This document shows positions 10,269 to 62,961 of a DNA stretch of 64,000 nucleotides, in pieces. Under the pieces are notes generated by a model that was not told where the DNA came from, did not search any database, and saw nothing but the letters and a program-made list of their open reading frames with translations. How positions within the stretch are numbered: position 1 is the stretch's first letter; every line of letters starts with the position of its first letter. The stretch is taken from positions 1 to 64,000 of the forward strand of contig OY811988.1 in NCBI GenBank assembly GCA_963681505.1. The letters are read 5' to 3'. Source of the DNA: Eunapius fragilis (lineage: Eukaryota; Porifera; Demospongiae; Spongillida; Spongillidae). The translations under genes and the position numbers were made by a program.

Positions 10269-10814
10269 TCAGATATATCCAGATGGATTTTGATAGTAAT
10301 CTATAAAGTTTTTGGTTTGAGTTGTTTGGTTAGTGGACTGTTGCAACATTCTTTCATAGATAATTTTTCCCTTCATTTTAAGAAACTCTTGTTCTGCATG
10401 TTCTTTCTGAAGTATCATATCATTAAGTTCTTGTTTCTTCTGTTGTGTCATGTCATGAAGCTCTTGTTCTGTGCATTCCTTCTCTTGTATCATGTCTCGA
10501 AGTTCTTCTTCCTTCTTTTGGTTAATGTCATGAAGTGCTTCACTCTCATCAGATGACATGTCCTGTGAAGGCCTTATAGTGAGAACCTCTTTCAACTGCT
10601 CTATAGATTTCACACAACCAGAAGGTTTTCTTGCAATATCCAGCATTGTCTTGTAACTTTTCTCCTTTGCGTCCATAGCCTGACGATATTCATTGTTCTT
10701 TTCTTCCAGCTCATTGTTCTTTTCCCTCAGCTTCTGCTCAGTCTCTCTTAGTCTCTGTTGTAAGTGCCTACACTCATCTTGTACCCTCAACAGTTCCGCA
10801 TCTTTGTCAACAGC
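10269..10814 (-). CDS. terminal coiled-coil exon
   Basis: A 182-codon exon including stop, with acceptor TCACAG at its 5' border. It is strongly heptad-patterned and charged: ECRHLQQRLRETEQKLREKN, then a non-coil insert around KPSGCVKSIEQL. A quasi-repeat of EELRDMIQEKE / QELHDMTQQKK / ELNDMILQKEH units follows. The C-terminus is polar (TNQTTQTKNFIDYYQNPSGYI). It belongs to the same minus-strand family but has no zinc finger. Confidence 0.6.
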   Translation of the reverse strand, partial: AVDKDAELLRVQDECRHLQQRLRETEQKLREKNNELEEKNNEYRQAMDAKEKSYKTMLDIARKPSGCVKSIEQLKEVLTIRPSQDMSSDESEALHDINQKKEEELRDMIQEKECTEQELHDMTQQKKQELNDMILQKEHAEQEFLKMKGKIIYERMLQQSTNQTTQTKNFIDYYQNPSGYI

Positions 10815-12880
10815 CTGTGACATGGAAAATAAGTTTCAAAGTACATGCATAACTGTGATGAGTAATCAATATATAAACACTTGGGCACAAGAATTTTCAA
10901 ATGGTTCAAGAAGGTGCTAGTTAAAGGAAGGGTGTAGTGTACATGCTGGGGCACCAAATGGAAGGGGTGCACTATATAGTGTCAAGAATTTATGAATTGC
11001 AATGGCACTACCCATGGCCTTATTCAACTTGCCAAAATCTCGGCCACAACTGCTGAAGACTGGTATTCAAGTGGTTAGGTGGGATGCTAAGATATCATGG
11101 GCCTCCTTGCCCCAATTACCATGTCTCCAAGCTAATGGAATAAAGACCAGCCCAATTCTTGGTATTTGGGTCATGCTTGCGGGCCTCTACAGTGTAATTA
11201 TTATTACTTTTTTAATCAAGCTAATACTTTTTATGATGTTTGAGTAGTGGATTCAGACGCTAAGTCCTACTCGCATCGTGATGTGGGTGCAGTTCTTTCC
11301 TCGATTGAACACACTAAGAAATAATCATACTCACAAGTTGCTTAAATGATTAATGTCTATTGTCCTGAGACAGTATGTGGCTACACCATCTACAGTATGT
11401 GGCTACACCACTTTTGTTATTTAAAAGAATAAAAACACTTCATCAACATAAGAGATGTCTTGTTACACAAGTAGGTTTTTGGGTCTTTTTCCTTTAATGG
11501 TGAAATCATCCCTACATTGGCTGTCATCTTGCATTGCATTTGAAATTGAATTCTAGGTCTACGTGACCTTAGAATATTCAGGCTTAAATTTTCACGGTGA
11601 TTCATCTTTTTTCTTCTTCAAGTTTTGTAATAGCTATGCATGCAATGAGACTAGTTGCATATTCCACATCTCAATTCTTTGAGGGGGCACCTCTCAGCAC
11701 AGCCTCCTTCCCATCCCCTCTCTTTGGTAGATCAAGGCCAGGCTGAAAAAGATGGGTTCCTGTCATCTATGGACAAATTCCTGAGACAGGAGATTGGCCG
11801 CATGCAGAAGGTGATCACAGTGGTGTGTAGACACAGCAAGCTGTAGGTGTTCCTAGCGAGACCTATGGCTTTCATCTATATCTATATCATTGACATGTGT
11901 TGACCTTCACGAGTTAATTTCCAGCAATAAGGAACTACATGTATATGTGAACTGTGTCTAGCGAGACTCCTGGCGAACAGACAGCGTAGATTAATAAAGA
12001 CTCCATAATTCATCTTCACTGGTCTGGATTGCACACACCATTGAATTGATCACACCTTATTTCGGTGTGCCAGCTGATAACTGGTCGTTACTATGGTTGC
12101 TGGCAACATCGCACAAAATGTATCAATCGCTAAGGATTCAATGCTTTTCATTTTTAATGCCTTATATGTGCTGCTATATTGAATGGCCCATTGGGTGAAA
12201 TATAATAAAAGTGAGTAATTTGGTATATAGGGTTTGATAAACAAAAAATCTTTGGTTATTAATAGTCATCAGTTTAAAGAAGCGTGATAAAAAAGCGAAT
12301 CCCATAAAGGGTGGCAGCTACAAGGCTGATCCAGAAAAGTAATTATTGGTGACGATTATTTATTTATTTACTTTACAGACCCCTAACATGTAAAAGGTAA
12401 CGGTATTAAAACTGTCCGATTTGCTAAGTGAATTCAATACGAGACCTGGACGTTCAGCCGTAAAGCTTGTTCCAAAGATGACACACTGCTGAAGGGGTCT
12501 TAGAACTACAGACAATCAAAAAGGTATGTTAGAGCAAGATCAATGACATATATCAACCTTGCTTTTATACATACATGTGGTTTGTAGTGATTTCTGACAT
12601 GTACATGGCTTCACATGCAGGCCTGCTGTTAACACCTGGTGTGTATGCTGGTGCGAATGTTATTGAGTTACATATACCTGGTGTAATGTAGGTGAAAGAA
12701 ATGTTTTAATATGTGATCATTTCCTATATAGCTACTCCCTGTACGAACCCAGGAGTATAATGATGGTCTTGAAAATGCTCAGCAAGCTGTACTGTAAGAG
12801 TGTGTATTGGACTTCCACCAGTGGACACCCTGCTAGCTTCATCAAGTTCCCTTTATGTTGGGACGTCCACGCCAGTACTA
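10815..12880. other. intron/intergenic stretch with two small gene fragments
   Basis: Mostly unrecognised AT-rich sequence with no long ORF. Two fragments stand out: a dynein-heavy-chain-like piece near 11745-11830 and a tiny SYKADPEK piece near 12310-12341 matching the KADPEKK repeats at 44.4 kb. Confidence 0.5.
11745..11848 (+). pseudogene. possible dynein heavy chain fragment
   Basis: Plus-strand translation gives MDKFLRQEIGRMQKVITVV, close to the FLRQEI-x-RMQ-V-I motif conserved in the C-terminal part of dynein heavy chains. The match stops within about 25 codons at a TAG, with no flanking dynein exons seen. It could be a processed or captured exon, or chance similarity. Confidence 0.35.
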
Positions 12881-12881
12881 G

Positions 12882-13362: not shown

Positions 13363-13364
13363 AG

Positions 13365-13940: not shown

Positions 13941-14166
13941 AAAACATTTTCTATGAGAACGTTGGTGGCCTACAGGATTGGAAGGTGTAATAAGGAAACA
14001 AGTGTCTATTAAAAGAAGGGGAAATATAATAGTCCTATATTTCGCCCATTTGTAAGTTGTGTATGAAGTATAGTTCCCATTATTATTAGACCCTTGTTTC
14101 CTACCTTTTTACACCACTAGTGCCTTCCAATCCTATTTGCCACCAACTTTCTCATAGAGAATGTTT
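13941..14166. mobile_element. palindromic MITE, diverged copy (family with CATTCTCT ends)
   Basis: The left end ACATTTTCTATGAGAACG and right end CTTTCTCATAGAGAATGT are inverted, and internal segments (cctatattt, ttgtttcct, tttttacacc) also pair across the centre. Other copies are at 30597-30884, 45881-46171, 47112-47361 and, as a half, 49288-49332. Confidence 0.7.
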
Positions 14167-14225: not shown

Positions 14226-14512
14226 GATGTATGCATCATCACTATGTACACACATCCACCAGGGTAATGTGTGCACCATCACTATGTGCACACATCCACC
14301 AGGGTAATGTATGCACCATCACTATGTGCACACATCCACCAGGGTAATGTGTGCACCATCACTATGTGCATACATCCACCAGGGTAATGTATGCACCATC
14401 ACTATGTGCACACATCCACCAGGGTAATGTATGCACCATCACTATGTGCACACATCCACCAGGGTAATGTATTCACAATCAATATGTGCACACATCCATC
14501 AGCTGCAGGGTA
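14226..14512. repeat. 40-bp minisatellite, about 7 copies
   Basis: The unit contains CACCATCACTATGTGCACAC and CATCCACCAGGGTAATGT. The word ACTATGT recurs at 14241, 14281, 14321, 14361, 14401 and 14441, giving an exact 40-base period. It lies in an intron of the decayed coiled-coil gene. Confidence 0.9.
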
Positions 14513-15099
14513 ATGTGTCCATTCCATATACACACCTTACACAACACAAGTACGTATGTGCACCCATCAGACACACACACACACACACGACGAATCATAA
14601 TATCACCATATGTAGCTCCCGTCACATTTACCTCGAGCATTCCCCCTTGACATCTCTCCAGTTCTGCCTTGTAAGAGTCCACCTGTTTCTTGTACTGCTT
14701 CACCTGCTGGTTCTTGGCCTGTAGTTCCTCCTGAAGATCTGTGAGCTCCTTGTTCCGCAGCTGAAGTTGAGCAATCTGCTCATCCTTGGAGGCCATCTCT
14801 GTCTCCTTCTGTTCAGTTCGGGTCTGTAACTCATCACAGCAGCTGACAAGGTGCTTGTTCCAGAGCTCAAGTCGAGTTAACTCTATATTCTTGGAGACCA
14901 TCTCTTGCTTCATTCTAGCCAGTTGCTCTTCATGGCAATGGTTGACCTGTGCAAAAATACTCGAAATGATCATGTGACCAGATAAAGGATGCACACATGT
15001 ACTGTAAGAGAGGCCAATAAACTCCTCTAATGTTAGTACATGAACATGCGATCAAACTCACACTATCGGTCTATACAGTATGAATAGTGTAAGCACAAT

Positions 15100-15440
15100 G
15101 ACTATGTGCAGTATGTGCACTGTAAGCACATGTACAGTATGTGTACTGTAAGCACATGTACAGTATGTGTACTGTAAGCACATGTACAGTATGTGTACTG
15201 TAAGCACATGTACAGTATGTGTACTGTAAGCACATGTACAGTATGTGTACTGTAAGCACATGTACAGTATGAGTACTGTAAGCACATGTACAGTATGTGT
15301 ACTGTAAGCACATGTACAGTATGGGTATTGTAAGCGCACGTACAGTATGTGTACTGTAAGCACATGTACAGTATGGGTATTGTAAGCGCACGTACAGTAT
15401 GTGTACTGTAAGCACATGTACAGTGTACTGTAAGCACATG
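15100..15440. repeat. 26-bp minisatellite, about 12-13 copies
   Basis: The unit includes TGTAAGCACATGTACAGTAT, with the word TGTAAGCACA recurring at 26-base spacing (15121, 15147 and onward). Because 26 is not a multiple of three, all three minus-strand frames stay open by chance, giving repeated Thr/His/Tyr/Cys translations that are not genes. Confidence 0.92.
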
Positions 15441-17224
15441 AACAGTACTAGTATGGGTACTGTAAACAATTGCATTTAATCATACACATACGTGTACCTG
15501 CTGGCACTTCTGCTTAGCCTCCACATCACGTCCTCTGCTTTGTGCCATATGACCTTCATCCATCTTCATAAGAAGTTGAACATCATATGTGGTGATGAGG
15601 GCATATTTTGAGCATTAGTAACAGTTAATGATATGTACATGCAGATTCCGGTGCTAAATAAGTATCAACCTACCCTAACTAGAACAAAGAGGTAATTGTC
15701 TGGTTCTAATCTAGGTACCATTTCTAGGTACCATATACATGACATTGTGGAAGATTCCTCATCCCACCACTCTCCACCTTCATGGTGTGTTATCGTGAGC
15801 AAGCAGACCCCTACCATTTATAGGGTCTAAACCACAAACTACTATTGGTTGTCCAGCAGGGTACATCTCCCAAACTAAGAAACTACTCATTCTGGTACTT
15901 TTATTCTCTGGGTATAGGGGCTTCATAATACATAGGGGTAACAAGGGAACCATTTTACCCTTATGGCCAGCTGATTCATCTCTTTGGGTTGATGTCTGCC
16001 TGTCCACTATTCTTGTTGTAATGCTATGCATGACAGTTAATTATATATACTGATGTATAAACTATTGAACTAATATCACTGATATAACACTATCCTAGAC
16101 AGGTCTGTTTAAAGCATCACCCAAAGTAATACCACTGATATTACACTAGATCAGACTGGCACTGGTGCACATGCTGTACATGTGTATCTCTCCAATCCTG
16201 AACATTCTTCTGCACACTGGAAAGGTCAGGTTGGGGTCCACGGGGATATTGGGTTCAGCCAATGACATTTTCCCATCACCCTCCACGTTGGCGTACCCAC
16301 TGGGGGGCCATGGGGTGTGGCAGTGGGTGTGACATTGCCCTGGCCTTAGTAGGGGGGAGGTGACCAACTGGGCTGGAGAGATGCTGCATGCTGGGAACAA
16401 CTGGCTCTGGGAGGTCATCATCACTGCTGTCATAGGAAACATGGCGAGCAGGTTGTGTGTTGGCTAGTTTCGGAGGAAGTTTTAATCAAATCACCCATGC
16501 AAAAAACTAGAGAACCTTACCTTTTGAAGCCGATGATCCGTGATGAACATGGGATGGAAAACTATCTGGATCTTCGTAGAAATGGTCTGTGAGACTCTGG
16601 AAATAAAAGGTAGTGGTAGCATGAATTTAACTTGAGCCATTCCATAAAAGATAAATATGTTCATTTAGCAAATAAACAATATTATAATGCCACATACACA
16701 CATACACATATGCATGAATTAGGAATGATAGCATGCCCTATCCTTGTTCTCCCAGCTAAAGAGGCTTGTGCAAGACTCTCCTTAAGTTGCTCAATTTCTT
16801 CCACCAGACGTATGTTGGTCTCCCTCTCCTGGCTGTACAGCTGTTCAAATTGTCCTGAACCACTCGACTGTACCTCAATGAATAAACGGACCATTACAAA
16901 AGCTCCAATACTACACATGTGTGGCATTATAAATACTCCTGTTTAAGCACGGACCACAGTTGCTATGGGTGAATTGAATGTACACACAATGCAGTAGAAT
17001 CAATAGTATTATCTGTATGATTAGTTTAGTGGGTCAGGTTGACATACACCAGAATTGTAGCACAAATTGGGTTATCACAACTGTAAACTTTGAGCTGAAA
17101 TTGAAAACTACTAATTGTAATTTCGTGGGTACCATGGTCGAAGCAAAAAAAATTCATAACACACAAAAAATAAATAATGAATTACAGTTGAACACACCTG
17201 TAACAATTACCCAATTCCACAAAC

Positions 17225-17485
17225 CTGTTGTGTGTAAACCTCCAACTGCTTCTGGTACTGCTTCACCTGGGCCACCTTCGCTGCTATCTCCTCTTTGGCT
17301 GCCACTAGTTCCTTTGCTAGTCCTTCTAACTGCTTCACTTTCATTTCACTGTTCTGGAGTTGTTGTTTTACCTCAGCAAGTTCACGCACCTTAGCTTGGA
17401 GCTGTTCCTTACACTCAGACAACTTATCATTGGCAGCTGCTCTGTCTTTTCTCTCATTTTCAAAGTCTTCTTTATCAGCTTGAAT
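17225..17485 (-). CDS. UBAN-like coiled-coil exon of gene A
   Basis: An 87-codon phase 0 exon. It opens IQADKEDFENERKDRAAAND, matching the D-F-x2-E-R-x2-R core by which NEMO, ABIN and optineurin bind linear or K63 ubiquitin chains. A continuous coil follows to QVKQYQKQLEVYTQQ. The second half aligns with gene C exon 55347-55493. Confidence 0.75.
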
Positions 17486-19510: not shown

Positions 19511-20245
19511 TAAAAGTAGATAAAATAGAGTGCCAAAAATGGCCGGCTTAACTATTCCCTCTGTGGAACAAACCTATATCTGTTATAAGGGGCATGTGTG
19601 GGTACAACTGCTGGTGAACACATAGCGGACCTATCGTGTTTCGGTACACAGTGTGTGAGTTAGACACACGCAGCAAAGTGCTTTTAAATGTTAAAAATGA
19701 GTTCATGGCGTACTGTCAAAGGTAGACCAAAGTTACGCGTTATGTGCAAATGACTTGTAGTTTTGTTTTTTTAATGTCTTGCGGTCCGTAACGGGGTTAA
19801 ATAATAACCCTAAAAATTGGGTACAGTAAGCGATCACAAATAAGACCACGCGCAAATAAGACCACTTACGTAATTATTTCCTCTTTAATAAGTTTATAGA
19901 TACATGTAAGACCGTTTCAAGAATCAGACCAATGTCTAATACGACCGCGTCGCGTGACTCTAGGGGGGGGGGGGATTTTAGTGACGATGGTGTTGCAATT
20001 CTCAGAAAGATAAACTCTTCACAATCACTTTCATCGTTATCTTGATACCCTGCTACAAGAAAATCTCTAGATTCAACTTCATAGATTCAACTGCGCGCTC
20101 GTGAGCTAACTGTGCTTTTGTTACAAAAAGGGCCCCAGTACGGATCGAGAACAATCGTTACCTAATCCTGCATGCACTAACGTGTATAAAGCGCCACGCA
20201 CCCCTTCCTATAGTTCGTTTCGGTGCAGACATGCACGTGTAGTTT

Positions 20246-21480
20246 GTGGACATACATGGATATGTTGTCTATAGGAAGCGAACACAGCGTGAGGAAAGTG
20301 TGGTCGAGCCACGAAAAAAGCGAAACGCTTTGTCTTTAGGAGAAAAACGTAAAGTCATTGAGCTGCTTGAGCAGCGAGGGTCTCAAAGAAAAATTGCCAT
20401 AACCATGGGGGTTTCCAAGACCCAAATCCAGCAGATACACTGTTCAAGCGAACTAATACGTAAAGCCATCCAAGAAACAGCAATTCCAATGCAGTCCAAG
20501 CTTAAGACTCCTAGAGCTCACAATCCAGAGCTTGACCAGTCAGTTTACGATTGGTTTTGTAAGATGCGTAATCCTCACAACCGTTGCAAGCCATTGCCAG
20601 TTTCAAGTGTCCAAGTGCGTGCCAAACGCGAGGCACAGTTACGAGGGATTTCAAGGCATCAGATGGTTGGCTTGCACGCTGGCGATGGCGTTATGGTGTG
20701 GGGAAGAGTGTCCGCCTTCATGGGGAGGCTGCTGGTGTCGATTTAGAAGCTGCAGAAAAGGAGATGCAGTCACTACGGGATAAGCTTGTGGAGGGAGGAT
20801 ATGCCACAGATCACAGCTTCAACATGGATTAGACTGGGCTCTTCTATCGTTGTATGCCTAGGCGCAGCTACTTGCTTGATGGTTGTGATTCAATGCAGGC
20901 AGGGAGAGGCATGAAAAGCCTGAAGGCAAAGGACATAGTGGTGTTGTGCTTAAATGCCACTGGTTCCTTCAAAATACCACCTTTAATGATAGGAACTGCT
21001 AAAACTCCACACGGTTTCAGAGATTCACCTCCTCCAATACATTATACTCATCAGTGCAATGCCTGGCTGGACAGGGAGAAGTACAAACATTGGTGGTATA
21101 ACATTCTACTTCCACATATTCGTCAGTGGACTAGTGACCCTGCAGCTTTGGTGATGGACAATTTCTCAGGGCAGGACATGCATGGAAGATCCAAAAGGCC
21201 AGGTCTCTGTGTTTCTACTGCCTGCAAAGAGTACAGCCATCTTCCAGCCCTGGACCAAGGCATAATTTCAATCTTAAAAACACAGTACAAGTATCAGCTG
21301 TTGAATAAAGTAATTGAAGCTGCAGATCACTATGATGAGCTACAGGTTTTGGCCAAACACGTGAGTGCAGGTAGAAAGGGTCTCAAATATGGCTGTCCTG
21401 CACATGTGTTAGATGCAGCTGAAATCTTCAAAGGTTGCTTTAGTAGTTGCTTCGTGTTGGGCAAGAGCAAAGTGTCTTCT
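20246..21480 (+). pseudogene. Tigger-like transposase (CENPB HTH plus DDE_1), broken
   Basis: An N-terminal psq-type helix-turn-helix (LSLGEKRKVIELLEQ ... KIAITMGVSKTQIQQI) is followed, after a frameshift near 20640, by the second CENPB-type DNA-binding part (FKASDGWLARWRWRYGV). The DDE core starts at NMD near 20823, where the next codon is TAG (20830), and continues TGLFYRCMP. Further on are VMDNFSGQD near 21157 and LDQGIISILKTQYKYQLLN near 21250. These are the catalytic Asp positions of the family. At least one frameshift and one stop make it non-functional. Confidence 0.85.
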
Positions 21481-21483
21481 GGT

Positions 21484-21715
21484 TTACAGTTGCTACGTAT
21501 GAATGTCAATTGTTTGTATAGTAAAATACCATAGAACAAACGGAATACCATCTGCAAACAATGAAGATTTCAACTGTTTATATTTATACAAGTAACTTGT
21601 AATGACAAGTGCCAAATTAAACAGTTGAAATCTTCATTGTTTGCAGGTGGTATTCCGTTTTGTTCTATGGTATTTTACTATACAAACAATTGACATTCAT
21701 ACGTAGCAACTGTAA
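21484..21715. repeat. inverted repeat with about 100-bp arms
   Basis: The arms, about 21484-21580 and 21615-21715, are near-perfect inverted copies, including TTTGTATAGTAAAATACCAT and its complement. The centre is about 35 bases. It lies at the 3' end of the transposase ORF, so either a foldback element inserted there or the element's 3' end was duplicated head to head. Confidence 0.85.
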
Positions 21716-25279: not shown

Positions 25280-25501
25280 CTGTTTCTCAAGTTCATTTCT
25301 ACATCTCTCCATATCAGTTCTGCATGCGTCTATCTGTATCTTCATCTGCTCCACCTGCAGGGCCCTGGTATGAAGCTCTGCAGTGGCTGCCGATAACGCT
25401 GCCTTAACCATCTGTAGCTCGGCTTCTGCCTTGGAGACCTTCGTTTGGGCCTGCTCCCTGTCCTTCCTCTCCTGATAGAAGTCCTCTATGTACGTCTTAG
25501 C
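25280..25501 (-). CDS. UBAN-like coiled-coil exon of gene E
   Basis: A 74-codon exon, acceptor CCCCAG and donor CAG|GTACGG. It contains EDFYQERKDRE followed by heptads. Relative to the gene D copy it lacks 11 codons after AEAE (the SSREEGLMAELQ region). Confidence 0.75.
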
Positions 25502-29400: not shown

Positions 29401-29411
29401 AGCTTATTAAT

Positions 29412-29600
29412 AAAGAAGTCATGGGGGGTACAGCTGTAAGTGCACAAGAGGAAACATGGCGTCTGTAATTCTGTACCTCGCCTTTCCTGAACCCTTCTCG
29501 GCAGGAAGGGCACGTTAGATCATACTGGGACAAACCTTCATCGCCACCTGTCAGACGGGCCCCCTGATGCCAAATGATGTCACTATCAACATTTGCCCCA
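29412..29600 (-). pseudogene. orphan CCHC zinc-finger fragment, copy of gene D 3' end
   Basis: On the minus strand the sequence matches gene D's terminal exon: HQGARLTGGDEGLSQYD, then LTCPSCREGFRKGEVQNYRR and HVSSCALTAVP. The ANAPLDPN segment before the finger is deleted. All four metal ligands are kept. An extra C after the last Pro codons removes the paralogue's stop, and the frame runs on into non-homologous sequence. No coil exons were found upstream, so it is a duplicated fragment. Confidence 0.7.
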
Positions 29601-34875: not shown

Positions 34876-35685
34876 TCAATAGAGTTTACTACAGGTCTCA
34901 GCATGACGTTTGAATTTTTGAATCTCTCCCATCCTGAAGGTTTCTCGACAAACCGTACATGTGAGGTTAGGGTCAAGAGGAGCACCTGATGATGATGACC
35001 CAATGGTGCCCTCCCCAGCATAAGGTATGTCTTTGGCACCACGCAGGTCCATCTCTTTGGCTACATTGTTACTCTGACTAACACTTGGACTGTTTTGGTC
35101 CAGCAGAGGCACACTTGTTCCACGCCGAGGTTTAGTGGTCTCAATTCTCTGTAGGACCACAGCCCGCTGCCACCCCCGTTGGTAGTGAGGGTTATCGTAC
35201 ACCTGCGGACCATAGTGTGCTGCATACCTCCCTGGAGGCTGGGGTTGGGGCTGCTGGTATGGGGTGCCGTGAGGCTGCCCTGATGCTGCCCGCACCTTTA
35301 CAGGCAAGCATCTCTGCGGGGCCATTTGGTGAGGAGCCAATACAGCTGGGGGTGGAAGATCATTCTCCTCTTCACACTGTGCTCCCTGTTTGGGGGCATG
35401 CTTTTGTGGAGGTGGCCGTGAATTCCCTTGAACCTGCTCAGATGCGGTTGATGATGGCTGGTCATCATAGCCTTGGAATGGTGGATTATTGGGTGGGTTT
35501 GTTCTCAGAGGGAATCCAGGGGCCACCTGTTCCATACCTTGGTGTGCATATGGATCCTCGTGGTGTGGCTGTCTAACCTGACTAACCTGGTAGGCTTGTT
35601 GTGCACTTGGTGTCACTTGGTGGTGGTATACAATGTCTGCCTCACTGATATGGGACTGTGGTGCTAGTCTAGGAGGTGTTAGCTG
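34876..35685 (-). CDS. Pro/Gln-rich tail and CCHC finger exon (gene B)
   Basis: The exon starts QLTPPRLAPQSHISEADIVY after acceptor TTGTAG. Long Pro/Gln/His-rich disorder carries DLPPPAVLAPHQM, shared in form with genes A and C. It ends LDPNLTC..C..(14)..H...C, SKLY and stop. The finger spacing C-x2-C-x14-H-x3-C is close to the NEMO/UBZ-type finger that binds ubiquitin. Confidence 0.75.
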   Translation of the reverse strand, partial: QLTPPRLAPQSHISEADIVYHHQVTPSAQQAYQVSQVRQPHHEDPYAHQGMEQVAPGFPLRTNPPNNPPFQGYDDQPSSTASEQVQGNSRPPPQKHAPKQGAQCEEENDLPPPAVLAPHQMAPQRCLPVKVRAASGQPHGTPYQQPQPQPPGRYAAHYGPQVYDNPHYQRGWQRAVVLQRIETTKPRRGTSVPLLDQNSPSVSQSNNVAKEMDLRGAKDIPYAGEGTIGSSSSGAPLDPNLTCTVCRETFRMGEIQKFKRHAETCSKLY

Positions 35686-40600: not shown

Positions 40601-40898
40601 TGAATTCCATTACAAGCAAAATTTCACCTTTTTCACGATATACACCCAAAAACTGAACAATGTTTGGATGCCTCAGACTACTAAGGAGATCACATTCTTT
40701 CAGGAATTTCTTTTTTATGGCCTCTACTTCATCTCTTCCAACATCAATATGACCTCTCTGGCCTACTAGAATGTCATGAATCTTCTTAGCAATGCAAGGT
40801 GTTCCATTCATCATGACTTCATAAACAGCTCCATATGATCCACCACCTACAACCTTTCTTCCATCAAACCCTTCCAGTGTGCGTATTGTGTAACATTC
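34876..40898 (-). CDS. gene B: TKL kinase, coiled-coil and CCHC zinc-finger gene
   Basis: Minus-strand phase 0 exons: 39993-40898 (302 codons, protein kinase), 38764-38985 (74 codons, coil), 38590-38601 (possible 4-codon LLMK microexon), 37726-38235 (170 codons, long coil with two NHCHEEQLAK repeats), 37492-37545 (18 codons, KKTQLEEYKDCTRKSQHE) and terminal 34876-35685 (269 residues: Pro/Gln-rich tail then finger CTVCRETFRMGEIQ...HAETC). Together these give at least about 830 residues. Upstream N-terminal exons are not identified. No UBAN core was found. If it is one transcript, the product would be a cytosolic kinase joined to a NEMO-like C-terminus, perhaps self-assembling through the coil. 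The alternative is two genes, one ending after the coil and one starting before 35685. Confidence 0.65.
35700..37490. other. long intron of gene B; nothing certain
   Basis: A 92-codon minus ORF at 36111-36389 (MMMGEGVRLIIGKYRRSWLQ...) is open but lacks coil or finger features and bounded phase 0 splice signals, so I do not include it. The rest is AT-rich with no repeats recognised. Confidence 0.35.
37572..37640. repeat. CA microsatellite
   Basis: A pure CA run of about 30 bases just upstream of ACACGTATGC. It lies in the intron between gene B exons 37726-38235 and 37492-37545. Confidence 0.9.
39493..39648. mobile_element. small foldback element in gene B intron
   Basis: TTGTGCTCAAACACTACCTC at 39493 pairs with GAGGTAGCGTTTGAGCACAA at 39629-39648, and the inner parts (GCAATTAGCATTTC against GAAATGCTAATTGC) also pair. 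It lies between the kinase exon and the first coil exon and is absent from the paralogous block at 14.2-16.05 kb. Confidence 0.75.
39993..40898 (-). CDS. TKL-type protein kinase domain exon (gene B)
   Basis: A complete kinase fold in one 302-codon exon. The Gly loop is VVGGGSYGAVYEV (residues 16-28), the ATP-anchoring Lys is in CIAKK (about 38), and the helix C Glu is in FLKECDLL (68). HPNIVQFLGVY follows, then the catalytic loop HRDLTAANILL (146-156), with Ala-Ala-Asn as in TKL/TK kinases, and IADLGVSK, a DLG instead of DFG metal-binding motif (166-168). The APE-equivalent is YMPPEAL, followed by DIFSFGVL. All catalytic residues are present, so activity is expected. Acceptor ATACAG and donor GAG|GTAAAA bound the exon. 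Confidence 0.9.
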
Positions 40899-40899
40899 C

Positions 40900-41340
40900 T
40901 GTATCTGAATTAATTCAGGGTACAATAAAACAATCACATTGTTTAAAGTAATTGTCTATATATATGTTAGCACAATAAACATGCATAATTCAATCCCTAA
41001 AATGGACTGTTGACATGCAAGTCCCCCAGCACAAAGTGGCGTGGCAAAGTTACAACTGATCATCTGATTATCTGAATTACTTTACCAATTAACGGCAACT
41101 TCCACATTGATAATAAGAATCAAAGAAATCAGTGGCTATGGAAAAATGCTGGAGAAAATTTCAAAGCTGATAATTTTACAAACATTATTTTGCACCATTA
41201 TGCCTGGAAAGAGTAGCTGGTGTGATGGTGTTCACATTAACCCCTATTCACCTGGTGTCCCGTACAAAGGATCAATGTCTTGCGTAAGGGACAATTTTTG
41301 AAACCTTTTTCGTGACCTCAGTAAACCTTGTACTAAAAAT
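40900..41340. other. upstream of the kinase exon; no exon identified
   Basis: The kinase exon has a good acceptor, so at least one 5' exon must lie upstream, but none could be recognised here. Confidence 0.35.
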
Positions 41341-44123: not shown

Positions 44124-44323
44124 NNNNNNNNNNNNNNNNNNNNNNNNNNNNNNNNNNNNNNNNNNNNNNNNNNNNNNNNNNNNNNNNNNNNNNNNNNNNN
44201 NNNNNNNNNNNNNNNNNNNNNNNNNNNNNNNNNNNNNNNNNNNNNNNNNNNNNNNNNNNNNNNNNNNNNNNNNNNNNNNNNNNNNNNNNNNNNNNNNNNN
44301 NNNNNNNNNNNNNNNNNNNNNNN
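44124..44323. other. assembly gap (200 N)
   Basis: Undetermined bases. A round 200 suggests a fixed-size placeholder rather than a measured length. Confidence 0.98.
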
Positions 44324-51979: not shown

Positions 51980-53029
51980 TCATCTCCCACATGTCTCCAC
52001 GTGTTGCCTGTAATTCTGGATTCTTCCCTTCTTGAAGACTATTCCACATAGAGGACATTTCAGGTTAGGATCCAATGGTGCTGGTGAGTGTGTCTCTTCA
52101 AACCCTCTACCATCAGTACTTCCAATGTCCTGCACCAGGCCTAAAGTGGAGGGAGGAGGAACTCTATTGGTGTGTCCTACTAGCTGTAAGGTCTCCTGGT
52201 CAGATAGGGGAACACCATTGTGCACTCCATCTGCAACAGGACGTCGATACATCTGCTGGTAGGGTTGGTGGTACACAGGAGGAGGGAGGTCATCATCATC
52301 ATCATCTCTTTGCATGGCATCTGCAACACGTGAGGCCCCATCTGCCACTACTGCCTGATTTGGTACGGACTGGTACCCTCTGTCATGTGACACGGGGGAG
52401 GGTGAGTACCCACTGTCATGTGACATGACATGGGGCGGGTACCCACTGTCATGTGGCATGTGTTGGGGTGGGTGACCTCTGTCATGTGACGTGTTGTGGG
52501 GCGGGTACGCTCCGTCATGTGACATGTTGTGGGGCGGGTACCCACTGTCACGTGACATGTGTTGGGGTGGGTACCCACTGTCATGTGACGTGACCGTGTA
52601 GCCATGACCTGGTGCAAGCAGGCCTGGAGACGGTGGAACTGATTCTTTTTGATGCACACCGCCTTCTGAAAGATAGCGCAATGGATGGACGACGGGAGGT
52701 GGGAGGGACTCATTGTGGTGGTCCAGACTGCCCCCACCTGGACCAACGTGGGAGGAGGGATAACAAGATGGCCGCTGGCACATCTCAGCCTTGGCTGAAG
52801 GCGTTTGTTTCATGTCTCTGATGCCAGCATCAGATGGTGGTGGTCCCATCACACCAGGTGAAATACCTTGGTCGCTAGGTGTGGGCTGCCCGGGCACCTT
52901 CACTTGGGATGGGGGCACACTGAGGTGGTCAGCAGGTGGATCTGGATCAGACGTGTGGGCGGATGGAGGGGGCGTGGTTGGAACCGGAACACACTCTGAT
53001 GAGGACTGGCACTGTGACGATAAAGGAGG
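51980..53029 (-). CDS. gene C terminal exon with 11-residue repeats and finger
   Basis: Disordered Pro/Ser/His-rich protein. The seven repeats at 52371-52600 (plus coordinates) share the core HD(S/R)GYPP, with His, Asn and Met positions varying. The finger ligands are C-x2-C-x14-H-x3-C. The residues before it, APLDPNL, are shared with genes B and D. Confidence 0.8.
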   Translation of the reverse strand, partial: PPLSSQCQSSSECVPVPTTPPPSAHTSDPDPPADHLSVPPSQVKVPGQPTPSDQGISPGVMGPPPSDAGIRDMKQTPSAKAEMCQRPSCYPSSHVGPGGGSLDHHNESLPPPVVHPLRYLSEGGVHQKESVPPSPGLLAPGHGYTVTSHDSGYPPQHMSRDSGYPPHNMSHDGAYPPHNTSHDRGHPPQHMPHDSGYPPHVMSHDSGYSPSPVSHDRGYQSVPNQAVVADGASRVADAMQRDDDDDDLPPPVYHQPYQQMYRRPVADGVHNGVPLSDQETLQLVGHTNRVPPPSTLGLVQDIGSTDGRGFEETHSPAPLDPNLKCPLCGIVFKKGRIQNYRQHVETCGR

Positions 53030-56000
53030 CTGAATTACTTGATCCATGCATTAACATGCATACTGTGTAAGTTCATAGAATAACTGAAGATGTGTTCTTA
53101 CACTTCATATCTGTGTACACATACATGTATATGCAAGGACACTGTGCACAGTGCTACGATGCACCTACTTCAGACTACCACTGATGTACATTAAACGTCC
53201 CTCCTTCAATAACACATCACACCCAAATTACTTGCATGGTATGCAACACAGCTTTTTTTTTAAATGTGGATGACTACACACTGCAGATGTGGTTGGCTAA
53301 CACAATTACATTCACATATGTGATTCACATACAGTAGGGGCTAGCACATTGCGAAAAGTAACAGCTCGCACATTGCGAAAATAAGCCCTATTTATTGTGA
53401 TGTTAGGCCAGGGTTAGTGTTCTTTGCGTGACCCAATCGATCGCTGCAACCCACCGCTAATGAGATTCACGCGGCCCAGGAATCTCATTAGCCGTAACCA
53501 CCCACCTGTTGATCATCCCAGAAAATATTATTTTATAATATGTACATTAACCCTTTAGCTGAGGAGTAAACACCTGAACGGAATGGCTTTACCGTTTTTC
53601 TTCTTGTATTTTCTATGTCCACGATGATTAAGGCAGCTTGCGTATTTCTCCAGCAGCTATGCATGTAACACCCTGACAACAAAAGTGGCATAATATGCTG
53701 CAGCAACCCATACATGTAAACCACCTACATATTAAAAGCATGTATGTTGAGTAGATACACACATGTACGTATGCATGTGCATCTTGTATGTGATATGGCC
53801 TGTGTGCAAAAGTGAAGGGATAACTGCTCAATAAAACTATAACTGCATCTTACCATAAGATCGTGTTCTACGCATAAAGCACGTGCATGATGCAATTTAT
53901 TATCGTGGGCATGCATCATTTAGGATGTATGTTGAAAAAGAAAGTTACTAATAGTAGGGCCTGTCTGGAGTACTACATGTAGGTAGGGTGTTTCACCCGT
54001 ACACTATATACAAAGGACACAAGTGAATGAGCGCTGATTGGTCATTGCAGCACGGGTTTACGAACGGGGATGATGTACACACTAAACCGTGCATTGATAC
54101 ATTAACAAGGGTAAGTGGTCAATGAAACTTTCGCCTTTTTTGTTGTTGCTTTGTCCCTTCAGGTGCATATGACCATCGTAGTAAAATGATTCGTGTGGCT
54201 CGGTGGGATTGCTTCAGTTAGATAAACCAACTTATGCACTAAGTTCTCTACAGCACAATTCAGGCGCAATGTGTGTATGCATTCACTCAGCTTGGGATAT
54301 AGGTATCTGTAGAACATGATCCTATGGTAAGATGCAGTTATTGTTTTATTGAGCTGCTATCCCTTCACTTTTGCACACAGGCCATATCACATACAAGATG
54401 CACATGCATACGTACATGTGTGTATCTACTCAACGTACATGCTTTTAATATGTAGGTGGTTTACATGTATGCATAGGTTGCTGCAGCATATTTATGCCAC
54501 TTTTGTTGTCAGGGTGTTACTGCATAGCTGCTGGAGAAATACACAAGCTGCCTTAGTCATCCTGGACATTGAAAATACAAGAAGAAAAACGGTAAAGCCA
54601 TTCCGTTCAGGTGTTTTCTCCTCAGCTAAAGGGTTAATGTACATATTATAAAACAATATTTTCTGGGATGATCAACAAGTGGGTGGTTTACATAAACTAC
54701 CGTCTAATGAGATTCCTGGGCCGCGTGAATCTCATTAGCGGTGGGTTGCAGCGATCGATTGGATCATGCAAACAACACTAACCCTGGCCTAACACCACAA
54801 TGAATAGGGCTTATTTTCGCAATGTGCGAGCTGTTACTTTTCGCAATGTGCGAGCCGCTACTGCACAAGCAATTGAAACATCATTGCTCAATTGTACACC
54901 ACAATAGATAAGCTAAGCTGTGTGTACCATGATGAAATGAGCAGTGTGTGCACATGAATATGCACATGTTACACATAATAACTGCTGAAGATCAACGTAC
55001 AACAGAAGGTATAACCTTCTCTTCACTTCCTACCTGTGCTCCATCTAAGTTAACCAACTCTACGTACACTGTGTCTTGGGCATCCTCAGCCTATAGGGAA
55101 AAAGAAAGAATTGATCACCAGTACATAAATGGGGAGCCTTTTAATGTGGCAAAAGCAGTGGCAATCCATACTAAAAAAAGCCAGGGAATTAAAATGGCTT
55201 CACTGTACCTGTTTCTTAGCTTCTTGTGTTTTGACATGAAGAACACCTACCTAATGTAACCACATCACAGTGGTTAGCACACACATACAAGCACTCACGT
55301 TCAATGTACATGTGCATGCAATACTCGGCAATCATAGTGACCCAACCTCTCCTTTGTAAGCCTCCACCTGCTTCTGGTACTGCTTCACCTGGGCCACCTT
55401 CACTGCTATCTCTTCTTTGGCTGCCTCTAGTTCGGCTTTCACTTTAAATAACTCTTTTCTCATTTCTTGCAACTCTTTTTCTTTTTCAGCCAACTTAAAA
55501 GCAAATGGTTAGGGTGGAGTACCAGTCAAAAAGAACTTCAATAATGATTTAATGTATCCTTAATAAAATGAAGCACTTTACCTTTAATAGCACCCTACCC
55601 AGCATAGCACCCCTAATAGCACCCTTCCCAGCTTAGCACCCCTGATAGCACCCTTCCCAGCTTAGCACCCTTGATAGCACACTTCCCTGCTTAGCACCCC
55701 TGATAGCACCCTTCCCAGCTTAGAACCCCTGATAGCACCCTTTCCAGTTTAGAACCCCTGATAGCACCCTTCCCAGCTTAGCACCCCTGATAGCACCCTT
55801 CCCAGCTTAGCACCCCTGATAGCACCTTCCCAGTTTAGCACCCCTGATAGCACTTTCCCGGCCACCATAACATCTATCCTTGATAGTATATATGTTTTTG
55901 CTTAAGTACAGAACACTTGACCACATCCCCAGGCATTGGGAGGGTGTGGTCACAACATCACATGGGCATTAAGAGGGTGTGTTCATCACAGGGAGGGGTG

Positions 56001-57645: not shown

Positions 57646-58287
57646 TCATGGGGGTACAGCTGTAAGTGCACAAGAGGAAACATGGCGTCTGTAATTCTGT
57701 ATCTCGCCTTTCCTGAATCCTTCTCTGCAGTACGGACATGTCAGATTAGGATCCAGCGGAGCATTGGCATCGTACTGGGACACACCTTCATCGCCACCAG
57801 TCAGATGGGCCCCCTGATGCCGAATGATCTCACCATCAACACGAGCAGCAGGAAGATCACGCCCCCCAGGGTGACCCCCTGGAACCGTAGCCACTGGCAT
57901 CAAGGGAGACCTCTCGTGGTTTGACGCCCTCAAATTGCTACTGTCTGCCCGGAAAGGTAGCAACGGTCGTAATATCATCCCTGGTGCCTGGTGTTGGTGA
58001 GGAGGGTGGTGGTGGGGAATGGCTGCTTCCTGCAGATGTGACTCAAGTCCCATCTGCTTGAGGCTGCCCAGAGAGTTACTGCGATGCCTGGTGTACCCCC
58101 TGCTGCTGACTCTTTCCCCGCTTTCCCCTTGGCGATGCGGTGGGAGGGGCCGACCGTGAGAGGATGGGTCAACGCCACCCACGAGAGATCGCTGAACGTT
58201 GACCCCCGAGATATCAGACGACGACTGGGGGGGTTCGCCGTGGGTTACATCATCGGGTGATGGCCTGGGGCCTCGATGGTCTAAGTG
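57646..58287 (-). CDS. gene D terminal exon: His/Pro-rich tail and CCHC finger
   Basis: It begins HLDHRGPRPSPDDVTHGEPP and is rich in Arg, Pro, His and Ser, with PHHHPPHQHQAP. The finger ligands are complete. It ends ALTAVPP and stop. A partial copy lies at 29412-29600. Confidence 0.8.
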   Translation of the reverse strand, partial: HLDHRGPRPSPDDVTHGEPPQSSSDISGVNVQRSLVGGVDPSSHGRPLPPHRQGESGERVSSRGYTRHRSNSLGSLKQMGLESHLQEAAIPHHHPPHQHQAPGMILRPLLPFRADSSNLRASNHERSPLMPVATVPGGHPGGRDLPAARVDGEIIRHQGAHLTGGDEGVSQYDANAPLDPNLTCPYCREGFRKGEIQNYRRHVSSCALTAVPP

Positions 58288-61200
58288 CTGCAAAGTTCAA
58301 TTCCAAAAATCACATTGACATCATGAAATAGACCACAGCACCATGTTAAAACTTATAGGTAGAAGGGGACAGGCAATACAGAGGAGACATTGACCGCCAA
58401 GCATACATCCAAATGCACAGAGTCCACATCACATCAGGTGAGTAGGGTATACATGTGAGAATGGATGGACCTTTTTACACCACAGTCTTCCTTTATCAGA
58501 GTACTTGTATAAAGGGGTCTACAGGTCATAATAAGTACAGGTGTGTCTTTCCAGCTCTGCCCATATGAAGTTCATAGTGCATCCCAAAGGTGTGAGTGCT
58601 AATTAAATCTGTACCCTAAGTACTTAATTTGATTCATAGTATATAAACTAGCGCAAATTCATAGTTTAGTAAGTAGGAAGGGTTTTCACAATCACCACCA
58701 CTCCTTTTGGATGTGTGGGTAGGGTTTGACCAGGGGTGGGGGGGACGGGGAAGGGGGGGCGGGGGGCACAGGTAAGGTGGTAGGTGGGGTAATTAAGGTG
58801 GTATATAGGTAAGGTGGGAGTAATTATAATTATGGAGGTAAGTAGGGTAATTAAGTAATTAAAGTGGTAAGGTGCGGTAATTAAGGTGGTGAGGGTGGGT
58901 TGTAGGTAGAGTAGGGTAATTAAGATGGTGTGGGTGTGGTTGTGTGGTAGGTAGAGTAGGTAATTAAGATGGTGTGGGTGTGGTAGGTAGAGTAGAGTAG
59001 GGTAATTAAGGAGGTGAGGGTGGCAGGTACACTGTAGGTAGAGTGGGGTAATTAAGATGGTGTGGGTGTGGTTGTGTGGTAGAGTAGGGTAATTAAGGAG
59101 GTGAGGGTGGTAGGTAGAGTGGGGTAATTAAGGAGGTGAGGGTGGCAGGTAGGTAGAGTGGGGTAATTAAGGAGGTGAGGGTGGTAGGTAGAGTGGGGTA
59201 ATTAAGGAGGTGAGGGTGGCAGGTAGGTAGAGTGGGGTAATTAAGGAGGTGAGGGTGGTAGGTAGAGTGGGGTAATTAAGGAGGTGAGGGTGGTAGGTAG
59301 AGTGGGGTAATTAAGGATTAAGGAGGTGAGGGTGGTAGGTAGAGTGGGGTAATTAAGGAGGTGAGGGTGGTAGGTAGAGTGGGGTAATTAAGGATTAAGG
59401 AGGTGAGGGTGGTAGGTAGAGTGGGGTAATTAAGGATTAAGGTGGTGAGGGTGGTAGGTAGAGTGGGGCAATTAAATTCTACTCTACCTACCATTTAATT
59501 AATTTGATTCATAGTATATAAACTAGCGCAAATTCATAGTTTAGTAGGAAAGGGTAACCCCAATCCCACCATGGGTGGATGGATAGGGGTGGGGGGTGCA
59601 TAGGTAAGGTGGGAGTAATTATGGAGGTAAGTAGGCAGGGTATTGAGTAGGGGTAATTAAGGTGGAAAGGGTGAGGATGGGTGATACGTAGGTAGGCGGG
59701 TAGGTAGGGTGGGAATAATTAAGGTGGTAGACGGAGAAGTTCCCATGGCTGTGGCAATATATGTACCTACATCTAGTTTTATGTAGGGGTCCGAGGGGAA
59801 GATACATAATTGCAATTCCCCCTTGAACAGCAATGCACGGTGTGGATGTAAACACATACCAACCCACACGTGAAGCAGCATACACACGCACCCAAGATCC
59901 CAGTGATGATGATCTATAAGTCTGGACTGGCTTCTCACGGGTAGAAGAAGGTATATTTGGTGATTGTTTTACCCGTTCACTTTCCCAACGAGGCTCCTGA
60001 AAAGTGAATGGTAACAGCACTCCTCCCACATATCACCAGCCATTTACCTCCATTTGCTGCCTCCGTACAGGGTCTTCCTGTGCAGCACGTGCGTTTACAC
60101 TGCGCTGAAGATGGAACAAACACACCAAGTCTATTTTCTGCCTCTGTGCAGTTGTATATGCACACACACAATTTTGCCTCTGCCTCCAAAATTATTAACA
60201 AGACCACTTTAAGCATTTCTTCACCTTCTGAACCATATTATCTGCCAATCTCTTCTAACAACATAGCCATGATACCCTCTTCCCCAGTCAAGGCAAACTT
60301 CCCCAGACCCGTACCTGTTTCTCAAGTTCATTTCTACATCTCTCCAAATCAGTTTTGTATGCGTCTATCTGTATCTTCATCTGCTCCACCTGCAGCACCC
60401 TGGTATGAAGGTCTGCAGTGGCTGCCGATGACGCTGCCTTAACCCTCTGTAGCTCAGCCATAAGCCCCTCCTCCCTACTGGAACGTTCTGCTTCTGCCTG
60501 GGAGACTTTGGTTTGGGCCTGCTCCCTGTCCTTCCTCTCCTGCAGGAAGTCCTCTTTGTACGTCTGAGCCTGGGGATGAGGGAGACAAGTACTGCAGTAT
60601 TCAACAATGTTGCCCAATACCATTACATTATGAAGGTTTATTTATTTATTAAGTAATTAATTTAATCAGCAAGCGATGAAGGCTACCTATAACGTTTGTA
60701 TTCACAGTAACACACACCATTAGTTTGCCCAACAAGGTCAAGGATTGTGCTGCACAAGCTTCTTGGGCAGTAAATATTGCGCAGAACACATCAGGAAGCA
60801 CATTTGAGATAGCTAATACAAACAACTAGGGTGTTAAGTTCAGCTCAAACGTCATCAGGTTAACCTAACCAATGTATAATTTATCTAACGCTTGGCACTT
60901 GTAGGCTAAACGATCCCAAATTACCTGTGCCTTCATAAGCTCCAGTTCCCCTGCCAGTTCTTCCCTCTCTCTGGTCACCTCCCTAAGTGCCTTGGCCTGT
61001 GAGCTGTTCTCCTCCCTCAGCCTCTCCACCTCTCGCTGTAAGGTCTGGGAACCCTTTGCAGAGGACTTCTCCTGTCTCGTTACCTCCAGCTGTTCTGTCA
61101 GCTGTTTGACAACGTCCTCAAGTGAGGCATTTAAGGACTGTGGAGGAGGAGGAGGGGTAAGAAAGAGGAGAGGGGAGGAGGAATAGAGTGGGTTAATCTA

Positions 61201-61870
61201 CCAAATACAGCATATCACATTTACAGTGTCCTACCATAAATAAACTCATTTGAAAAAACCACAACCAAAGCCATAAAGGTTAGAACACCACTCTATTCCA
61301 GCTTCTAATGTAACTTAAGAATAAAAAAGTACACTTGTTGTTTTGCTGGCACTGTGCATAAGACTTACATTGGGATATTGGGCTAAAAGTACTCCCAACA
61401 TGTACCAGTTACATTTAGACAATCATCACACCCACACATTCCACCCCCCAACCCGTCATTACACACACACACATACCTCCACTCCACATCCAAGCAATGA
61501 TCACCTTACCCCTATCACACACCACCACCCCACAACACCCCTACCCCATAACACCACCATCACACCCCACCTTACCCCACATCACACACCACCACCCCAC
61601 ACCCCCATCCCACCACAAACCTTCAGCTCAACAATAGCACTACTCTGCTTTGCCACGTGAGACATGAGCTGGTCCATCTCCTTCTTTTGGTCCTCTGTCA
61701 CCTTCACTACCTCCTGGTCCTGTCCATCAAGAGAGGACTGAGGAGGAGGTGGAGGCAGGAACATAACACTGCTTCATACATGCATATATGTGTATGTGTA
61801 TGTGTATGTGTATGTATGTATGTATGTATGTATGTATGTATGTATGTATGTATGTATGTATGTATGTATG

Positions 61871-61901
<31 letters not shown>

Positions 61902-62961
61902 TGTATGCATGTATGTATGTATGTATGTATGTATGTATGTATGTATGTATGTATGTATGTATGTATGTATGTATGTGCGTGCGTGCGTGCGTGCGTGTGG
62001 TATGTGGGTGTGGACACTCCTAAAAGCAACCATACACATACACATACATGTAGTTGCATGCAACTCAATCAATTTTACTGAAATTCATTGTGTTCTGCCC
62101 AACAAGGGAGAAGGGGGTAAAGATGGGGGAGGGAGGAGGAGGGGAGGAGAGGAGGGAAGGGGAGGAGAGGGAGAAGAGGAAGGGGAGGAGAGAGGGAGAA
62201 GAGATGAGGGATGAGGGAAGAAAGCAGAGGAGGAAATGAGGGAAGGGGAGGAGGGAGGGAATTCCTTCTCACCTGAGAGGTGCTCTTCATTGTCGGCACC
62301 CTGCCCACTACGGCTTCATACTTCTTCCTATATCGCTTCTTCACCTCCTCAAGTTCGGCCATATGTGCCTCCATCTTCTCCCTCATCAGCTGCTCATGCT
62401 CCCCCTGCAGCTCCTTCAGGTGCTGCCTGTGGTTTGTTTCCAGGTCCTTCATCTGTTGGCTTGCAGCTTGCTCAAGTCTGGCCCTCTCTCCCTTGGCCTT
62501 CTTAAGCTCCTCCTCCAACTGCTGTGTCCTTCCTTCAACCTGCAAGGTCTCCAGTTAAGACATCTTACACACACAAACATAAACACACACATCAACACAA
62601 CATACACACATGCATTCACATGTCACGTACGCCTACATCTTGAGTACATGCAAGGTCTTCAAATTTTAAAGATATCTCTTATGCACACATACGGACACAC
62701 ACACACACACACACACACATACACACACACCTCCACTGGAGTACATGAACCACTCCCTGATCTAGCTCCTAATTCCTGTTGAACCTTCTCTTCATATTTC
62801 TTTTTGTAATACTTTTTCAACTTCTCCAACTGGACTTGGTGAAGCTGTTCCTTCTCCTTCATCACTGCCTCGTGTTTCTTCAACAGTTCGTCTACGTTAC
62901 GCTGATGTACCATCTCCAAGTCCTTCGGCCCCTTCTCCTCAGAAGAATGGCCACCGCTGAT
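57646..62961 (-). CDS. gene D: UBAN coiled-coil and CCHC zinc-finger gene (ABIN/NEMO-like)
   Basis: Minus-strand phase 0 exons: 62731-62961 (77 codons), 62273-62539 (89), 61621-61737 (39), 60925-61137 (71), 60315-60569 (85, UBAN), 60049-60105 (19), 57646-58287 (213 residues plus stop). This gives about 593 residues, and at least one 5' exon is missing. The first two exons share a KLKKYYKKKYEE / EVKKRYRKKYEAVV motif. The coil is nearly continuous to QVEQMKIQIDAYKTDLERC. The UBAN exon opens AQTYKEDFLQERKDREQAQT. The tail is His/Pro-rich and disordered, ending in finger CPYCREGFRKGEIQNYRRH and VSSC. Domain order (coil, UBAN, Pro-rich, finger) equals that of NEMO. Likely a cytosolic ubiquitin-chain-binding adaptor; ABIN or optineurin-type roles are alternatives. 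All reading frames are intact. Confidence 0.75.
58780..59475. repeat. about 35-bp G-rich minisatellite, roughly 18 copies
   Basis: Units of the form GGGGTAATTAAGGAGGTGAG + GGTGGTAGGTAGAGT repeat with small indels. The G-rich strand is the plus strand, so the transcribed gene D intron would be C-rich. A related sequence resumes at 59560-59720. Confidence 0.9.
60315..60569 (-). CDS. UBAN-like exon of gene D
   Basis: An 85-codon exon, acceptor CCCCAG, donor CAG|GTACGG. The core D-F-L-Q-E-R-K-D-R matches the family pattern, in which the Asp-Phe and Glu-Arg residues contact the proximal ubiquitin. It is followed by QAEAERSSREEG, then heptads. Confidence 0.8.
61140..61620. other. gene D intron with A/C-rich simple sequence
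   Basis: 61430-61620 is a C/A-rich imperfect repeat (CACACCCCAC and CACCACCCC words). No exon. Confidence 0.6.
61790..62000. repeat. GTAT tetranucleotide microsatellite
   Basis: Over 40 copies of TGTA/GTAT, interrupted near 61900, ending in a GTGC run. It lies in a gene D intron. Long Tyr/Val/Met/Cys ORFs across it on both strands are artefacts. Confidence 0.95.
62105..62265 (+). repeat. purine-only (GGGAGGA)n tract
   Basis: About 150 bases almost entirely G and A, directly downstream of the donor of gene D exon 62273-62539; C/T-rich on the transcribed strand. Confidence 0.9.

Follow-up and report, generated by a model that had tools for sequence, protein, structure and literature searches.

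The first 64,000 nucleotides of contig OY811988.1 of the sponge Eunapius fragilis (GenBank assembly GCA_963681505.1), here called the window, are the start of a 6.26-Mb contig (C18) in a 219-Mb genome of 24 contigs, and they hold one end of a large gene array. On balance, we favor the reading that the array proteins are assembled from four modules: a kinase or pseudokinase domain resembling IRAK4 and RIPK2, a UBAN core within a coiled coil, a linker in which an acidic-LPPP motif is frequent, and a CCHC finger at the C terminus. Judged from sequence, they would be linear-ubiquitin readers with a built-in kinase or pseudokinase, accompanied by kinase-less members resembling ABIN. A preliminary description of the window had proposed a local cluster of UBAN and CCHC-finger coiled-coil paralogues laid out like NEMO, ABIN, and optineurin (OPTN). 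It overlooked the fused IRAK4/RIPK2-like kinase, the probable inverted haplotype, and the full extent of the array. In what follows, L0xx labels denote fetched genomic loci (most of them on C18) and P0xxx labels denote predicted sponge proteins.

As described previously, three minus-strand exons of the window carry a D-F-x2-E-R-x2-R core: those of gene A (positions 17225 to 17485; EDFENERKDR), gene E (25280 to 25501; EDFYQERKDR), and gene D (60315 to 60569; EDFLQERKDR). The Pfam check of their UBAN assignment fell short, with CC2-LZ (PF16516) scores of 19.6 bits (E = 1.2e-3), 24.3 bits (E = 4.4e-5), and 22.3 bits (E = 1.8e-4), respectively, against a curated cut-off of 35.3 bits. CC2-LZ was the top-scoring Pfam family in exons E and D, and exon A scored higher with another coil family. 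The best CC2-LZ score among 10 sponge proteins was 33.4 bits (P0128). The gene D exon, which has a 100% identical twin at C18:116300-116554 on the plus strand, had TNIP2 as its top PDB match (E = 0.026).

Profile searches pointed more clearly to UBAN. We built a profile (A3) from seven C18 exons with the core, gathered by protein similarity or sequence pattern and none of them via Pfam. The top 16 of its 29 distinct PDB sequences were UBANs of TNIP2, TNIP1, and NEMO (E = 4.6e-6 to 0.031), many of these 16 being variants of the same proteins; TNIP2 was the best single match, unrelated coils appeared from E = 0.12, and optineurin followed at 0.27. As a control, five coil exons that do not have the core were made into a profile, which retrieved no UBAN among 23 matches. 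When six members, all from a CC2-LZ search, were added to A3, the top 20 of 46 PDB matches of the resulting 13-exon profile were all NEMO, TNIP, or OPTN. CC2-LZ matched each of the 13 aligned exons at E <= 1. The core D, F, E, R, and R were invariant in all 13, partly by choice, since a related pattern had served to gather two of the seven exons in A3. The similarity to solved UBANs thus exceeds that to unrelated coils, and the exons are UBAN-like, as first proposed. According to one study (PMC4999505), OPTN touches linear diubiquitin through residues D474, E478, R479, and R482, and its suppression of NF-kappaB is lost with the substitutions D474N and E478G. Paired with OPTN through the common D-F-x2-E-R-x2-R pattern, the array core keeps residues apparently equivalent to these contacts, and it may bind ubiquitin in a similar way. 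Outside the array, L002 and L005 (C6:7.26 and 7.30 Mb) are genes with two UBAN core exons each, about 1 kb apart; UBANs made up 19 of the 20 PDB matches of the L005 exon, with TNIP1 first.

The kinase exon, which belongs to one of the window units, lies at 39993 to 40904 on the minus strand (frame 39972 to 40955). It scored 133.2 bits with Pkinase (cut-off, 31.7) and 121.6 bits with PK_Tyr_Ser-Thr (cut-off, 23.1), and it keeps the catalytic Lys, HRD, and DLG. Among the best 60 of 1,084 PDB matches, the first was a plant receptor kinase, followed mostly by IRAK4, and the most similar animal kinases were IRAK4, TNNI3K, NEK7, TAO3, and RIPK2. Where kinase matches were named sponge proteins, their source was Ephydatia muelleri or Halichondria panicea. 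When the genome was searched for the kinase at E <= 1e-30, with 122 of 293 candidates scored, at least 59 matches emerged: 36 on C18 (all but two of them within the first 821 kb), 8 on C15, 6 on C1, and 9 elsewhere. HRD/DLG kinases occur in the window, L064, L067 to L069, L071, P0021, P0025, and P0029, some of the genomic frames (e.g., L071) being broken. HGD replaces HRD in P0122, P0126, and P0128 (HGD/DFG) and in L072 (HGD/NFG, so that the DFG Asp is lost), and L070, P0121, P0124, and P0125 are pseudokinases by motif. These three catalytic subclasses pair with different tails in both sponges.

To ask for the full architecture in single proteins, predicted proteins of another sponge were used in place of transcripts. 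The query, made of the UBAN and following coil of the kinase-less L065 gene 2, matched 9 proteins (E <= 0.001; 423 candidates), 8 of which have a kinase domain. Two of the nine are named E. muelleri by NCBI; the other seven bear EukProt names like Em0002g and were taken as E. muelleri. P0124 and P0125 each contain a pseudokinase, a UBAN, a DDSLPPPV motif, and a finger, and P0126 contains a kinase, a UBAN, and a finger; P0127 has the finger without a kinase or an exact core. In tblastn alignments, L070 (C18:769501-775500) matches both P0124 and P0125 collinearly across pseudokinase, UBAN, and finger. L072 (C18:594501-601500) is collinear with P0128 across kinase, coil, and UBAN and with P0126 across kinase, coil, and finger, and the window kinase gene is collinear with P0021, whose finger lacks the first Cys, across kinase, coil, and finger. 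In the predicted models P0027, P0068, and P0123 the UBAN precedes the kinase, an order that is either real or chimeric. The best reading of these predicted proteins is that a kinase or pseudokinase, a UBAN, and a finger can occur in one chain. A VKQYQKQVEAYK stretch follows the UBAN core in L065, L070, L072, P0121 to P0128, and P0025; it is identical in all nine proteins matched by the query, which itself held VKQYQKQVEAYK, and in several C18 exons.

We built gene models by hand, picking splice sites by eye to hold frames open. Starting from the kinase exon, the model of the window kinase gene continues through a pair of coil exons and a pair of short exons to a finger exon and encodes 860 residues; all of its splice sites are AG/GT and in phase 0. 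Both coil exons lack the D-F-x2-E-R core (38764 to 38985, matching P0021 residues 345 to 396, and 37726 to 38235, matching residues 351 to 392), and the coil exon at 37.7 to 38.3 kb had no PDB match at E <= 0.01. Two linker exons (37492 to 37545 and 36659 to 36733) lead to a proline-rich last exon with an ENDLPPPA motif, a finger, and a stop (34876 to 35685; P0021 residues 502 to 568). Gene D was modelled without a kinase, in eight exons running coil, UBAN, proline-rich linker, and finger. A first coil exon with an uncertain 5' end (62731 to 62956; open frame, donor GT) is followed by coil exons at 62273 to 62539, 61621 to 61737, and 60925 to 61137, the UBAN exon, a short linker exon (60048 to 60077), and a further linker exon (59892 to 59996), the coil and linker exons after the first having AG/GT sites and phase 0. 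The last exon (57646 to 58287) contains the proline-rich linker, the CCHC finger, and the stop. All of these exons are on the minus strand. Elsewhere in the array, the models give a 549-residue pseudokinase-UBAN-finger protein for L070 and a 643-residue kinase-less coil-UBAN-finger protein for L065 gene 2.

The five minus-strand fingers or relics described earlier were all located, and three of them (at 57649, 51986, and 34888) are intact. The finger at 29423 proved to be a fragment without the DPN stretch (29408 to 29548), and that of gene A is a relic that has lost its first Cys and its His (16158 to 16280). The finger spacing is C-x2-C-x14-H-x3-C, with x14 in 30 of 30 fingers read and the fourth Cys in 29. 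NEMO and OPTN fingers have the spacing C-x2-C-x12-H-x3-C. By predicted ligand spacing, the array finger therefore departs from the NEMO/OPTN type and agrees with the C-x2-C-x14-H UBZ of NDP52 and TAX1BP1, fourth ligand included. Its nearest solved relative by sequence was NDP52, at a nonsignificant E of 0.029. While the coil, UBAN, proline-rich, and finger order of gene D upholds the NEMO/ABIN/OPTN layout that had been proposed, a NEMO-type finger is thus unsupported. The array finger also differs from the UBZ of NDP52/CALCOCO2 and TAX1BP1: its fourth ligand is Cys, an acidic residue at the NDP52 ubiquitin-contact position (D439, before the His) is present in 3 of 30 fingers and replaced in 27, and a G-x-I-Q stretch is conserved instead. 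The NDP52 substitution D439R abolishes binding, according to PMC8017197. PF18414 had no match genome-wide, its controls being equally silent. In a Pfam scan of 19 fingers, the first member had no score over the cut-off, and the best E was 1.1e-4, for zf-C2HC_2. Of 30 last-exon frames, 14 have an acidic-LPPP(V/I/A)-like motif about 40 to 220 residues N-terminal of the finger (e.g., near 35340 and 52300). Such a motif, a candidate for binding, also occurs in 6 of the 12 other sponge proteins that were checked. Three finger-like matches of equal score, in 93-residue frames at C9:3552830, 5056648, and 5375142, lie far from the array and are perhaps a repeat.

The local expansion of the family is larger than first claimed, reaching about 821 kb of C18. 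UBAN cores were scanned in the fetched loci only, and the array counts are lower bounds: at least 32 finger matches on C18 (5 in the window and 27 beyond 87 kb), at least 15 UBAN cores (3 and 12 beyond), and at least 34 kinase matches in the first 821 kb (1 and 33 beyond), some of which are possibly pieces of one kinase. For 12 of the 15 UBAN cores, the next same-strand element was a finger no more than 10 kb away; after a kinase, it was a finger in 7 of 34 and a UBAN in 3 of 34 within the same distance. The order kinase, UBAN, finger was seen twice, at 770.8 to 774.2 kb on the plus strand and at 600.7 to 594.7 kb on the minus strand. Besides many relics, the array comprises three kinds of chain: the complete kinase-UBAN-finger type, a kinase-coil-finger type in which the core is missing, and a coil-UBAN-finger type that has no kinase. 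Ratios of nonsynonymous to synonymous substitution rates (dN/dS) between paralogues were 0.41 to 0.89 over the last 45 codons and 0.51 to 1.04 over 110 codons (9 of 10 pairs usable); three UBAN pairs gave 0.53 to 1.03. The array is best read as a birth-and-death multigene family. Kinase and UBAN matches also lie close together outside C18, at C12:2449898-2467706 and C1:22939012-22951064.

The window itself requires caution as a sample of this array. A scaffold gap of 200 N at 44124 to 44323 splits it into two scaffold pieces, and a further 200-N gap lies at 87044 to 87243 of C18. The segment from 69546 to 87043 is an inverted copy of 105093 to 87583 with 99.0% identity, mirrored across the second gap, and collinear inverted matches persist leftwards to 51950, mostly at 88 to 97% and lower within tandem repeats. 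Loci further left (L011, L013, L030, and L034) pair with 181 to 210 kb at mostly 93 to 99%, and 34 to 41 kb pairs with 174 to 184 kb at 81 to 93% (kinase exon, 91%). Judged from these alignments, the first 87 kb of C18 probably represents the alternate haplotype, joined to the scaffold in reverse orientation, and both scaffold pieces of the window are probably haplotype copies of loci at 88 to 222 kb. Most window units would then be alleles of plus-strand genes at 88 to 222 kb rather than extra genes. The cluster of at least six minus-strand units within 53 kb is real, but it spans two scaffold pieces, some of its units are broken, and its single orientation would mostly reflect that of the scaffold. 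We considered a true palindromic gene duplication and judged it less likely, because the mirror axis falls at the 200-N gap, the start of C18 showed no telomere repeat, and collinearity extends from 51.9 to 87.0 kb; the duplication keeps some probability, and the identity between 34 to 41 kb and 174 to 184 kb is only 81 to 93%. A coding test comparing both haplotypes gave copies too alike to inform.

Several results weigh against kinase-bearing ubiquitin readers. The CC2-LZ cut-off was never met in scans of array proteins, the full L070 and L065 gene 2 models gave no CC2-LZ match at E <= 0.01, and residues 250 to 616 of gene D (UBAN to finger) found no homologue among 7,789 candidates. The next same-strand element after a kinase match was another kinase in 21 of 34 cases, 13 of the 36 C18 kinase matches contain stops, and the dN/dS values imply weak constraint. 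As to the catalytic motifs, no UBAN core accompanied the HRD/DLG kinases listed above in the frames and proteins that were examined, and the chains seen with a kinase before a UBAN are all pseudokinases (L070, P0121, P0124, and P0125) or HGD types. An HRD kinase occurs with a UBAN only where the UBAN comes first (P0027, P0068, and P0123), and a standard catalytic kinase with a full UBAN-finger tail was not seen among the chains examined. The nearest to it is P0126, with Lys, both Asp, and HGD. These motif results lowered our confidence in the favored reading and slightly raised that in its rivals.

One rival, which we consider unlikely, holds that kinase genes merely alternate with coil-UBAN-finger genes and that the fusions are gene-prediction chimeras. 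Predictors can chain neighboring genes in tandem arrays, both the window kinase frame and that of L070 meet a stop soon after the proposed donor, and complete kinase-less members exist (L065 gene 2 and P0127). The eye-picked splice sites and the reversed order of P0027, P0068, and P0123 also speak for such interleaving. Yet the kinase-UBAN-finger order recurs in two genomes, collinear exon by exon, and two sources, EukProt and NCBI, supply single proteins that join a kinase to a UBAN or finger. Of similarly low probability is a core that serves as a conserved coil-dimer element and no longer binds ubiquitin, the proteins being oligomerizing kinase scaffolds whose finger binds another partner. 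The CC2-LZ scores under the cut-off, the UBZ acidic contact absent from 27 of 30 fingers, the weak constraint, and the retention of a different coil motif, VKQYQKQVEAYK, in nine of nine proteins (from a query containing it) would all fit; the invariant residues, however, include the OPTN linear-diubiquitin contacts, which a bare coil need not keep. We give about as little weight to a mainly inhibitory, ABIN-like array in which readers lacking a kinase or bearing a pseudokinase dampen signaling as competitors for ubiquitin chains. ABINs inhibit NF-kappaB via ubiquitin binding (PMC11854354), the A3 profile had TNIP2 as its best single PDB match, and the gene D and L065 gene 2 models lack a kinase, with pseudokinases in L070, P0121, P0124, and P0125. 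Against this, the kinases of the window, L064, L071 (in a broken frame), P0021, and P0025 keep the catalytic Lys and both Asp, as does P0126 apart from its HGD.

If the array does encode readers with a built-in kinase, the UBAN coil dimer would bind ubiquitin chains, either linear (Met1) or mixed, that are built where receptors are activated or membranes invaded, and by docking there it would cluster the attached kinase or pseudokinase domains. One polypeptide would do the job of IKK with NEMO or of TBK1 with optineurin. Members with an intact kinase would signal, and pseudokinase and kinase-less members would be scaffolds or ABIN-like competitors. A writer of linear ubiquitin is plausible, since the HOIP-type E3_UbLigase_RBR domain had four matches over the cut-off, in two places 8 kb apart (C14:127787-136256). 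Genome searches for OTULIN and for the N-terminal IKK-binding domain of NEMO (PF11577) returned no match, the controls being silent too.

The array shares the D-F-x2-E-R-x2-R core in its coil with ABIN-2/TNIP2, ABIN-1/TNIP1, NEMO, and optineurin, and it has a C-terminal Cys/His finger after the UBAN, as do NEMO and OPTN. It differs from the UBAN family in having at least 12 UBAN cores beyond the window copy and several members with a kinase domain, from NEMO and OPTN in the x14 of its finger (x12 in theirs), and from NEMO in that the IKK-binding domain was not found in the genome (with silent controls). Unlike IRAK4 and RIPK2, the array kinases carry a coil, often with a UBAN, and a finger, and no Death domain was found at E <= 0.01 in the 10 sponge proteins scanned. 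As in IKK-NEMO and TBK1-optineurin, a ubiquitin reader is paired with a kinase; in those systems the two are separate proteins, whereas here they would share one polypeptide.

Other minus-strand elements of the window resemble parts of the family. The last exon of a further gene (51980 to 53011) has a DDDDLPPPV motif and an intact finger and matches P0127 residues 257 to 376 at 41%; a coil exon with a VAQVKQYQKQVEAYK motif (55347 to 55493; boundaries by eye; P0127 residues 119 to 185) probably belongs to it. The element downstream of gene E is the gene A UBAN exon, with no finger in between. By sequence likeness, a frame at 14479 to 15051 contains a coil exon resembling that at 37.7 kb, and the coil exon in a frame at 10269 to 10835 resembles the coil at the N terminus of the sponge kinase P0029 (46% over residues 38 to 88; E = 5.4e-9). 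Tandem repeats with units of 26 to 74 bases occupy 14227 to 15447, 52372 to 52589, 55587 to 55853, and 58876 to 59475; the last exon at 51980 to 53011 contains one of these repeats. On the plus strand, frames at 6630 to 9933 with zinc knuckle, reverse-transcriptase, and integrase-like stretches look by eye like a Ty3/gypsy-type retroelement, and frames at 20243 to 21534 look like a pogo/Tc1-like transposase.

To our knowledge, known animal pathways keep the ubiquitin reader and the kinase in separate proteins. Among the titles listed in searches of an open-licence library, none described a kinase-UBAN fusion or such a sponge array, which does not show that none has been published. It is possible, if at somewhat less than even chances, that sponges evolved self-contained kinases and pseudokinases gated by linear ubiquitin, each uniting an IRAK/RIPK-like domain, a UBAN reader, and a finger, and diversified them into a fast-turnover array with decoys, and thus an innate immune repertoire at the ubiquitin-reading step and not at the receptor. 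A natural single-chain kinase-UBAN fusion, if true, would be a minimal system for asking whether chain binding alone activates a kinase, and it would mean that early-branching animals diversify immune signaling at the step of ubiquitin decoding.

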